Of a DNA stretch of 64,000 bases, positions 32,734 to 63,952 are shown in pieces; within the stretch, counting starts at the first letter, position 1; each line of letters starts with the position of its first letter. The notes under the pieces are model-generated. The model was not told the origin of the DNA. It ran no database searches and saw nothing but the letters and a program-made list of their open reading frames with translations. Both the position numbers and the translations under genes were made by a program. The DNA lies in contig CAKZQG010000004.1 of the NCBI GenBank assembly GCA_937139605.1, forward strand, positions 7,832-71,831, in the 5' to 3' direction. Origin of the DNA: an uncultured bacterium (GTDB lineage Bacteria > DRYD01).

Positions 32734-33717
32734 TTATTTAACCAAGACATTTTCAAGTAAATCTTCTAAAGAATAAACAGGAATATTAATATTTTTAAAT
32801 CCTTTGTTAATTAAATTAGTAAGTATTTTATTAGGTAAAAGCTCTAAAAAAATAAAATCATCATACTTTTTAACAATATTTTCAATAGTATTTATCCAAT
32901 TAACAGAACTTATCATCTGATTTAACATTAAATTCTTAATAACATCTTTGTCATTATATTCATTAGAATCAATAGAAATAAAAACAGGTTTAACAGGATT
33001 GTTAAAATTAGTTTTTGAAATCTCTTGTTTAAATAATTCATTTGCTTGACTAACTAAAGGACTATGAAAAGCCCCAGAAACTTTTAATGGAATAATTTTT
33101 ATATTTTTAAATTCTCTTTTAATTTGATCTTTCAAATCTTCTAAAATATTTATAGAACAAGATACTATTAATTGACTATAAGAATTAAAATTAGCAATAA
33201 CAGCATTAAATTTTTTAACAATCTCATTTAATTGATTAATAGAATCATTATCAAAATTATAGATAAGAGCAAACATAGTGCCTTCCTTAGAGTAATTATA
33301 CATAAAATATCCTCTTTTAACTACTAAAGACACAGCATCAAATAAATCTAAAGCTTGAAAAGCTGTCAATAAAGTATATTCCCCTAAGCTATGCCCAGCA
33401 CCAGTTAAAATATTATCCCAATCCAAATAATCCCTTAAAAAATAAAATGAACTTATACTAACACTAAAAATAGATACTTGACTATATTTAGTTAAATCCA
33501 ACTTATCTTTATTTTCCTCATTTTCTATTAACTCTTTCAAATCTACATCAATAAAATCAGATAAATTTTGCTTTATATAATCATTTATTTTATCAAAAAC
33601 TTGCTTATAAGTATCAAAAGAATCATATAATTTTTTACCCATCTTAATATATTGACTAGCTTGTCCAGGAAAAAGTAAAACAACTTTTTTATTTTTTATT
33701 ATATCCAACATAATCAC
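32734..33717 (-). CDS. fabD: Malonyl-CoA:ACP transacylase
   Basis: A 327-residue enzyme that loads malonyl groups onto acyl carrier protein for fatty-acid synthesis. The signatures are LLFPGQASQ at about 14-22, GHSLGEY with the nucleophile Ser near residue 110, and GAFHSPLV carrying the catalytic His. The length is close to the usual 310. Met3 (ATG TTG) may be the true start, as no clear Shine-Dalgarno separates the first two ATGs. The 5' side holds an 11-bp hairpin and an interleaved inverted-repeat structure (33726-33828), which could be a leader. Other fab genes are not in the window. Confidence 0.93.
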   Translation of the reverse strand: MIMLDIIKNKKVVLLFPGQASQYIKMGKKLYDSFDTYKQVFDKINDYIKQNLSDFIDVDLKELIENEENKDKLDLTKYSQVSIFSVSISSFYFLRDYLDWDNILTGAGHSLGEYTLLTAFQALDLFDAVSLVVKRGYFMYNYSKEGTMFALIYNFDNDSINQLNEIVKKFNAVIANFNSYSQLIVSCSINILEDLKDQIKREFKNIKIIPLKVSGAFHSPLVSQANELFKQEISKTNFNNPVKPVFISIDSNEYNDKDVIKNLMLNQMISSVNWINTIENIVKKYDDFIFLELLPNKILTNLINKGFKNINIPVYSLEDLLENVLVK

Positions 33718-33725
33718 TCATTAAT

Positions 33726-33828
33726 AAAGGTGTATAGTCTTATACACCTTTAGCAGACCTATTTGTATTCCGCCAATTGATATTATATCAAGTTAGCCTT
33801 ATGGTCTGCAGGCGGTATTAGGCTAACT
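33726..33828 (-). promoter_or_regulatory. Structured leader candidate with three interleaved helices plus a hairpin, upstream of fabD
   Basis: Visible complementarities are AGTTAGCC (33791-33798) with GGCTAACT (33821-33828), 8 bp; GCAGACC (33753-33759) with GGTCTGC (33803-33809), 7 bp; CCGCC (33770-33774) with GGCGG (33811-33815), 5 bp; and a local TTGATA/TATCAA hairpin (33777-33791). The first three interleave, so they can form a pseudoknotted fold. A perfect 11-bp stem AAAGGTGTATA/TATACACCTTT (33726-33751) follows, ending 8 bases before the fabD start. No known riboswitch matches it by eye. It may also be a DNA site. Confidence 0.45.
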
Positions 33829-34034
33829 ATGAACCTTGCACCAAGCACAAAACCTAAATTTAAACTCCCTTAACAACTCTTTAAAAAGTTTTTTTAATAC
33901 TCTCTCCTTACAAGTTCCTTCACTAATTGCCTTGATCTTGGGTCTTATATTTACTGTTAACGTTATTGTATCTTTAGTCTTTTTAATTTTATATCTCTCT
34001 ATATCCTCATACGCTTTTTAATAGTTTTTACCAA
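33823..34034 (-). other. Possible small frame-disrupted ORF upstream of fabD
   Basis: Reading from an AGGAGG site (34050-34045) and a TTG start near 34034, LVKTIKK is interrupted. The next frame reads AYEDIERYKIKKTKDTITLT, VNIRPKIKAIS, CKERVLKKLFKELLREF and FCAWCKVHS to a TAG at 33825-33823. One extra A at the A5 run (T5 at 34015-34019) would join them as about 70 residues. The second piece has plausible amphipathic helices and a CxxC, but no family is recognised. It may be a gene remnant or chance. Confidence 0.3.
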
Positions 34035-34080
34035 CTGTTTCAATCCTCCTTATTTTGTAAAATTTATTATTTTGTAAAAC

Positions 34081-45233: not shown

Positions 45234-45308
45234 GCGCCTGTAGCTCAGTAGGATTAGAGCATGGGATTTCTAATCCCAGGGTCGCAGGTTCGAATCCTGC
45301 CAGGCGCG
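45234..45308 (+). tRNA. tRNA-Arg (anticodon TCT)
   Basis: A cloverleaf can be drawn by eye. The acceptor GCGCCTG pairs with CAGGCGC, the D-arm is GCTC/GAGC, the anticodon stem TGGGA/TCCCA surrounds the loop TTTCTAA (anticodon TCT), and the T-arm GCAGG/CCTGC surrounds TTCGAAT. It is 75 bases with discriminator G and no encoded CCA. It reads AGA codons, which are frequent in this AT-rich DNA. Confidence 0.95.
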
Positions 45309-45555: not shown

Positions 45556-45626
45556 TGGCGGGTCGTCTAGTGGTAGGACATGGGACTTTGGATCCCATCG
45601 CGAGGGTTCGAATCCTTCCCCGCCAG
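45556..45626 (+). tRNA. tRNA-Gln (anticodon TTG)
   Basis: The acceptor TGGCGGG pairs with CCCGCCA, the anticodon stem TGGGA/TCCCA surrounds CTTTGGA (anticodon TTG), and the T-loop TTCGAAT sits on a clear stem. It is 71 bases with discriminator G and no encoded CCA. It reads CAA codons. Confidence 0.93.
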
Positions 45627-63533: not shown

Positions 63534-63952
63534 GTTTCAATTCCTTATAGGTAGGCTAAAACAAATTAGAAGAATTACAGTATTACATAAGAGAATTAGA
63601 GTTTCAATTCCTTATAGGTAGGCTAAAACTATACCTTATAGCACTAATCTCACTTTCATATCTAAGTTTCAATTCCTTATAGGTAGGCTAAAACATGAAT
63701 TCCGCGGGAGTGGGGGGGGGAGATCAGGTTTCAATTCCTTATAGGTAGGCTAAAACTCTATAAATATCTCCCCATAAACTTCAGGAATTATGTTTCAATT
63801 CCTTATAGGTAGGCTAAAACTTTGTAACAAAGTTAGTTATATATAAAAGTGGAGGTGAGTTTCAATTCCTTATAGGTAGGCTAAAACTAGAGAGACTAAT
63901 CATCAGCGCCGAATTTAAATGGAGTTTCAATTCCTTATAGGTAGGCTAAAAC
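63534..63952 (-). CRISPR. CRISPR array, seven 29-bp repeats and six spacers
   Basis: Seven perfectly matching 29-base repeats start at 63534, 63601, 63666, 63728, 63792, 63859 and 63924. On the plus strand each begins GTTTCAATTCC and ends GGTAGGCTAAAAC. Spacers are 38, 36, 33, 35, 38 and 36 bases. On the minus strand the repeat ends ATTGAAAC, the usual crRNA 5' tag of type I-B systems, so transcription should run leftward with the leader right of 63952. Degenerate TTTCAATTC fragments lie left of the array (63465-63505), which fits the old end. No cas gene is in the window. Confidence 0.95.

Follow-up and report, generated by a model that had tools for sequence, protein, structure and literature searches.

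Small H-type pseudoknots with an A-rich loop near the ribosome-binding site form the preQ1, SAM-II and guanidine-III riboswitches, and the structured rpsO leader serves the autoregulation of one gene. Pseudoknot 1 of tmRNA, which binds close to the decoding site, is critical (PMC4227106). A further study (PMC9458429) describes affinity of the rpsO 5′ untranslated region, and of an IRES, for the 30S subunit; it also reports that when a viral IGR IRES works in E. coli its pseudoknots are dispensable, while S1 and a Shine-Dalgarno (SD)-like sequence are needed. In the current study, we describe a pseudoknot that recurs before the start codons of many unrelated genes in a family of uncultured bacteria, and that at one of these genes, fabD, arrived with a transposon of the TnpB type.

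The window (the whole 64,000-nucleotide stretch that was analyzed) carries fabD, identified by an Acyl_transf_1 domain match (3.5e-22), on its minus strand. The features upstream of this gene are as follows.

34045..34049, minus strand: GGAGG, the original SD of fabD, now displaced, and also the target motif of the element
34032..34044, minus strand: left end of the TnpB element, ATTGAAACAGTTG, the same in the full element L036 and in six Thermus-type elements
33716..34044, minus strand: the TnpB-type element in full (about 330 bp), decayed and non-autonomous, including a stop-ridden remnant of the 3′ end of tnpB
33821..33828, minus strand: 5′ arm of stem a, AGTTAGCC, an optional third stem
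33811..33815, minus strand: 5′ arm of stem b, CCGCC, pseudoknot stem 1
33803..33809, minus strand: 5′ arm of stem c, GCAGACC, pseudoknot stem 2, separated from the 5′ arm of b by a single nucleotide (U)
33791..33798, minus strand: 3′ arm of stem a, GGCTAACT, read from the sequence
33770..33774, minus strand: 3′ arm of stem b, GGCGG, backed by pair statistics
33760..33769, minus strand: A-rich loop 3, AATACAAATA, consensus WAUAWAAAUA
33753..33759, minus strand: 3′ arm of stem c, GGTCTGC, backed by pair statistics
33725..33752, minus strand: perfect hairpin immediately 3′ of stem c, the subterminal palindrome of the transposon right end
33716..33724, minus strand: decayed right end, TTAATGAGT, consensus GTTAACCAGG / TTGACCAGG
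33709..33711, minus strand: ATG of fabD, orthologous to the start in the genus-mate G001 and 13 nt past the hairpin

The earlier note had seen interleaved inverted repeats here, and these are real: the six arms between 33753 and 33828 are perfectly complementary and follow the order a-b-c-a′-b′-c′. Its perfect stem before fabD is also present, although the arms measure 12 nt (with a 4-nt loop) and not 11. Stems b and c together constitute an H-type pseudoknot (CCGCY-U-c5 ... RGCGG-WAUAWAAAUA-c3) with a stem b of 5 bp, a loop 1 of one nucleotide, a stem c of 6 to 7 bp and an A-rich loop 3 of ten nucleotides. Because stem a is absent from some copies (L021), we regard the b/c pseudoknot as the core; stem a and the terminal hairpin are optional parts of the fold. 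Elsewhere in the window we observed two tRNA genes (45234-45308 and 45556-45626, plus strand) and a CRISPR array of at least 7 repeats (CRISPR-DR2; 63534-63952, plus strand) that reaches the window end.

The 161-bp stretch upstream of fabD has about 17 further or partial matches, at 70-89% identity, in its own genome (G000, 1.88 Mb). When aligned, these copies display a near-invariant core, CCGCC-T-GCAGACY ... GGCGG-RATAHAAATA-GGTCTGC, followed by the hairpin and GTTAACCAGG. Pair counts among such TnpB-type copies back all four helices, with 83.9% of the stem a cells paired and compensated changes present. A first covariance model found more leaders in G000, in G001 and in a second genus, and a broader model found 34, 18, 21, 13, 11 and 14 in the six genomes of the family and none in G006, a member of the same order. 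The total is about 110 copies in these six genomes, plus a few in Aquificota MAGs; the leader-bearing genes, unrelated to one another, number roughly 20 to 35 per genome, some 33 in G000. A pattern scan that made no requirement of stem c was positive in five of the six family genomes, and across 386 genomes it gave elsewhere only two matches, which we take as chance (G051/G138). A match in G008 (L226) was likewise set aside as chance. Two Aquificota MAGs hold copies of the native type as well, before rpoA, atpA, infC and the gene for ATP-citrate lyase.

In the native leaders, the c stems are wholly different in sequence and yet fully compensated. Among 64 leaders, 97.9% of cells were paired (79.0% in shuffles), double changes occupied 140 cells (30.6 in shuffles) and the covariation score was 0.501 versus 0.174 (at most 0.15 for slid structures), figures obtained from a covariance-model alignment that is biased toward stem c and not toward stem b, which was not modeled as paired. 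Changes on both sides were seen at 4 of 5 b pairs and 7 of 7 c pairs, and a smaller set of 15 sequences was 100% paired. A fixed-register test on native leaders, in which the anchors included no pairing, gave 4.94 of 7 pairs against 3.56 (SD, 0.11) after shuffling, the input matches having been chosen by a model that includes stem c. Stem b also covaries (CCGCT/AGCGG, CTGCC/GGCAG, GCACC/GGTGC and TCGCC/GGCGA); in L222 and L174, this normally constant stem has been swapped for a compensated one (GCACC/GGTGC and CTGCC/GGCAG, respectively). Positions 4, 6 and 7 of loop 3 are invariant in 87 native leaders, and the hairpin follows stem c in 24 of 92. Orthologues of rpsD, cutA and acpP share native leaders across genera. 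The suspicion that so GC-rich an arrangement would not arise by chance is thus borne out, both by the recurrences within the genome and by the presence in related genomes of the same pseudoknot, with differing sequence and compensated changes in its arms.

No Rfam 15 covariance model matched the family at gathering score (only a tRNA and a sub-threshold Alpha_RBS were reported, elsewhere in L296), and the fabD region returned nothing at E values up to 10, in agreement with the earlier failure to match it to a named riboswitch or ribozyme. Twister, suggested by the string CCUAAUACCGCC, and other known riboswitches and ribozymes are ruled out by topology and by these searches, the permissive one included. 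Integron attC sites were rejected on the grounds that the core motif rules are not obeyed and that the copies are dispersed rather than arrayed. Viral contigs contained neither a core match nor a TnpB relative, and our literature search found no account of this pseudoknot leader or of SD-targeted TnpB elements. That we are dealing with a previously undescribed RNA family is well supported.

All 92 testable native leaders and 16 of the TnpB-type copies in G000 lie in the sense orientation upstream of an ORF start, a kind of site that makes up 3.1% of sequence positions. One heavily decayed transposon-type copy (L017; G000 C3:9386-9499) has no clear gene start after it; a compensated change is still visible in its stem c (GCAAA/TTTGC). 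The genes concerned include rpsB, rpsD, rpsO, the gene for L32, recA, acpP, frr, rpoZ, rpoA, atpA and infC, unrelated housekeeping genes among which we could find no common pathway. As would be expected of a leader that substitutes for the SD, the distance to the AUG is fixed: the median is 14 nt from the 3′ arm of stem c where the hairpin is lacking (n = 68) and 13 nt from the hairpin end where it is present (n = 24).

Measured against background starts that were called mechanically, an SD of at least 5 nt was found before 2 of 34 leader genes in genus g1 (background, 89/313; P = 0.0034) and 10 of 58 in genus g2 (198/518; P = 0.0014); for an SD of at least 4 nt, the share in g2 equaled the background (28/58 versus 281/518). 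In pairs of orthologues, of which there are only about 10, hand-picked from tblastn output, the SD was weaker on the leader side in 9 of 10 and the reverse was never seen (P = 0.004). The rpsO pair is an example, with AAAGGAGGTTAAAAATG in the leaderless orthologue and no SD where the leader is present; the genes for an M42 peptidase and secD provide further contrasts. The weakening is partial in g2 and in Aquificota, whose leaders retain an SD-like AGGA or GGAG. Given these Aquificota leaders and the short SD kept by 28 of 58 leader genes in g2, the leader can evidently coexist with an SD.

One alternative is that the pseudoknot is a regulatory leader whose trans-acting partner, one and the same for all copies, tunes the translation of growth genes up or down; this partner could be a protein or a small signal (a growth-state metabolite, for example). 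The growth-related nature of many of the genes fits this, as do the several SDs that remain, and the conservation of loop 3 and stem b far beyond mechanical need is reminiscent of aptamers and protein-binding sites. However, the genes have no pathway in common, we could see neither an alternative structure nor an arm that would mask the SD, and initiation itself accounts better for the fixed spacing and the depletion of SDs; moreover, one would have to explain why a TnpB element should install a regulatory site. We consider this alternative unlikely, if worth keeping in mind. A more specific version, the lipid-metabolism sensor that the earlier note had imagined, does not hold, given that fabD in G001 has a plain SD and no leader and that the motif is spread over so many unrelated genes in G000.

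The upstream stop codon lies within 60 nt of 59 of 73 leaders and within 20 nt of 37 of 73, so that the leaders are mostly operon internal. Since most copies thus sit between codirectional genes near an upstream stop, the fold might instead be an element of mRNA processing or stability (an RNase barrier, or a pausing or antitermination signal). Against this, it is the start codon and not the upstream stop to which the distance is fixed, SDs are depleted, and our scan gave no terminator-like signal after the hairpin. We think this explanation improbable, and the same scan, which found no terminator-like site, led us to discard an intrinsic terminator.

How the leader came to stand before fabD can be read from the thiN-fabD junction. 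In G001 this is an empty site, GAGGGAGGTTTTTATG (GGGAGG-TTTTT-ATG), with a plain SD and no leader; its counterpart in the window is AAGGAGG-[element]-GATTATG. The comparison indicates that an element entered between the SD of fabD and its start codon, at a precise site and with no target duplication, although the boundaries are accurate only to a few bases, the right end being decayed. The fabD copy is therefore a recent transposon-borne arrival rather than something specific to that gene. secD shows the same pattern, with empty-site evidence (GGAGGGGTATATG; G001, TTTTGGAGGGGTATATG). GGAGG or a decayed form of it directly precedes most left ends in G000, and GGAGG precedes the left end of related elements in hot-spring bacteria and Thermus. 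Hence, GGAGG, i.e., the SD itself, is the apparent target motif. Just 18% of GGAGG occurrences as such are at a start, so selection, or a finer target, also contributes to the placing of 16 of 17 copies before starts. Some element copies in the GC-rich Thermus lie elsewhere, one of them within a gene.

The exact core pattern also occurs in contigs of a Sulfurihydrogenibium MAG (L036), an Acidobacteria MAG (L037) and a Hydrogenobaculum MAG (L038), and in these and the Thermus elements the right-end hairpin is in the same place. In L036, a full TnpB element, the core overlaps the 3′ end of a 541-amino-acid TnpB-related ORF (TIGR01765, 4.4e-21; TIGR01766, 5.8e-18), whose protein relatives are found on Thermus plasmids. 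A common left end, GGAGG-NNNN-AAACAGTTG, is seen in L036, in the Thermus-type elements and in the window, and so is a common right end, in which the hairpin is followed by TTGACCAGG / GTAACCAGG. The fabD copy thus has a conserved left end beside the target motif and a right end with a subterminal palindrome; of tnpB itself it retains a decayed remnant with internal stops (tblastn of L036 TnpB residues 411-538, E = 4.9e-6), the full ORF being found in the homologous L036. Delivery of the fabD copy by insertion of a TnpB element is well supported.

The L036 pseudoknot accounts for about 24 codons, ahead of the right-end hairpin, that have no counterpart in the Thermus proteins. We found no pseudoknot in the elements of the Thermus and G025 relatives and so rejected the idea that it is a standard part of all such elements; in view also of the extra codons, it is a module added in one TnpB lineage. 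At the pseudoknot-free Thermus-type loci (L045-L050 and L041), too, GGAGG precedes the left end. Several of these elements stop a few bases short of a start codon; one lies within a VWA gene. Neither TnpB nor TnpA was detected in G000, G001 or G003-G005, nor TnpB in G006. The copies in G000 (88.5% complete), where no Y1 transposase TnpA was found, are non-autonomous. Within the family, TnpB and TnpA were found in one place only, side by side at G002 C3:72862-74011 (L288 and L289). An omega-RNA working with a resident TnpB was discarded as an explanation on the strength of these negative searches in G000, G001 and G003-G006, and, with no TnpB detected in G000, omega-RNA guide activity there is now unlikely.

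It might be argued that the family is nothing but a relic: TnpB right ends (omega-RNA scaffolds) scattered by transposition in the manner of MITEs and kept by chance or trans-mobilization, with no host function. The 16 to 17 near-identical copies in G000 with both left and right ends, and the element and MITE-like copies in the Sulfurihydrogenibium and Hydrogenobaculum MAGs, are what one would predict on this basis. It does not account for native stems that are wholly different and fully compensated, for leaders common to orthologues across genera, or for their persistence in genomes where neither TnpB nor TnpA was detected. Moreover, the tnpB remnants are riddled with stops where the pseudoknot stays intact, and the Thermus TnpB relatives lack it. 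For the family as a whole, this reading is already disfavored, and we give it little credence.

The leader of icd in G001 stands midway between an insertion and a native leader. It retains a transposon-type stem c and has lost the left end, the interior and the hairpin, and its stem a has a new compensated pair (GGAAC/GTTCC); in G000, the full right end is still there. It is plausible both that a TnpB element captured the leader and that insertions turned into leaders.

On balance, we lean toward a ribosome-docking leader that would make the SD dispensable and that a TnpB element aimed at SDs has spread or captured; docking on the 30S subunit and substitution for the SD are the parts of this proposal that we infer. 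The pseudoknot, alone or with the coaxial hairpin, ends some 13 to 14 nt before the AUG, and the compact helix would most likely dock next to the mRNA exit of the 30S subunit, by analogy with tmRNA pseudoknot 1 just ahead of the resume codon. Docked in this way, it would hold the start codon in place, making a strong SD unnecessary. At fabD, the leader came with an IS200/IS605-like TnpB element, which inserts directly after GGAGG, in the sense orientation, and so lands between SD and start codon; its right end brings the pseudoknot, the hairpin and CCAGG, cargo that presumably replaces the displaced ribosome-binding site. The remainder of the element then decays, with the pseudoknot retained. 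The main caution against docking is the finding with the IGR IRES mentioned above. A bolder formulation, which we offer tentatively, is that the conserved pseudoknot is an IRES-like element native to bacteria. Common to two thermophilic lineages, it may recruit or position ribosomes on dozens of housekeeping mRNAs with no need of a strong SD, and it would be packaged by an SD-targeting RNA-guided-nuclease transposon that repairs the damage it does with a start-site leader of its own.

If true, this would give bacteria a third way to start translation, in addition to the SD-led and the leaderless ones, and the natural pairs (the same gene with an SD in one species and a pseudoknot in the next) are material for a direct test. 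The transposon illustrates how such elements might originate and spread, in that it targets ribosome-binding sites and would supply a substitute for them. GGAGG is an addition to the apparent target motifs of TnpB, and the RNA family itself is new for the annotation of deep-branching thermophiles. As for the original observation, a real, structured and undescribed leader RNA emerges from it, and the interpretation given to it at the time is partly supported.

With IS200/IS605-like TnpB elements (TIGR01765/TIGR01766) and their omega-RNA, the present elements share the left end, the subterminal right-end hairpin, a right end that abuts the tnpB stop and, in L036 and Thermus, a TnpB-related ORF. 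They differ in targeting GGAGG (the SD), in the pseudoknot module of one lineage and in the existence of host leaders without any element. Like MITE- or PATE-type derivatives of IS605, there are short, internally deleted copies with both ends; unlike in those derivatives, the copies keep a structured end on which selection acts at host start codons. The preQ1, SAM-II and guanidine-III riboswitches differ from this family in that here there is no Rfam match and no shared pathway, and the SD lies outside the fold. In functional terms, tmRNA pseudoknot 1 comes closest: it is also of the H type and shortly upstream of the first codon read, with a similar A-rich loop and spacing. No homology was detected (the tmRNA family had no match in the Rfam scans), and our pseudoknot stands in cis, in ordinary mRNAs that have an AUG. 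Finally, the rpsO-type 5′ untranslated region and the viral IGR IRES likewise place a pseudoknot upstream of the start codon where it meets the 30S subunit, whereas here a single fold is common to dozens of unrelated genes.
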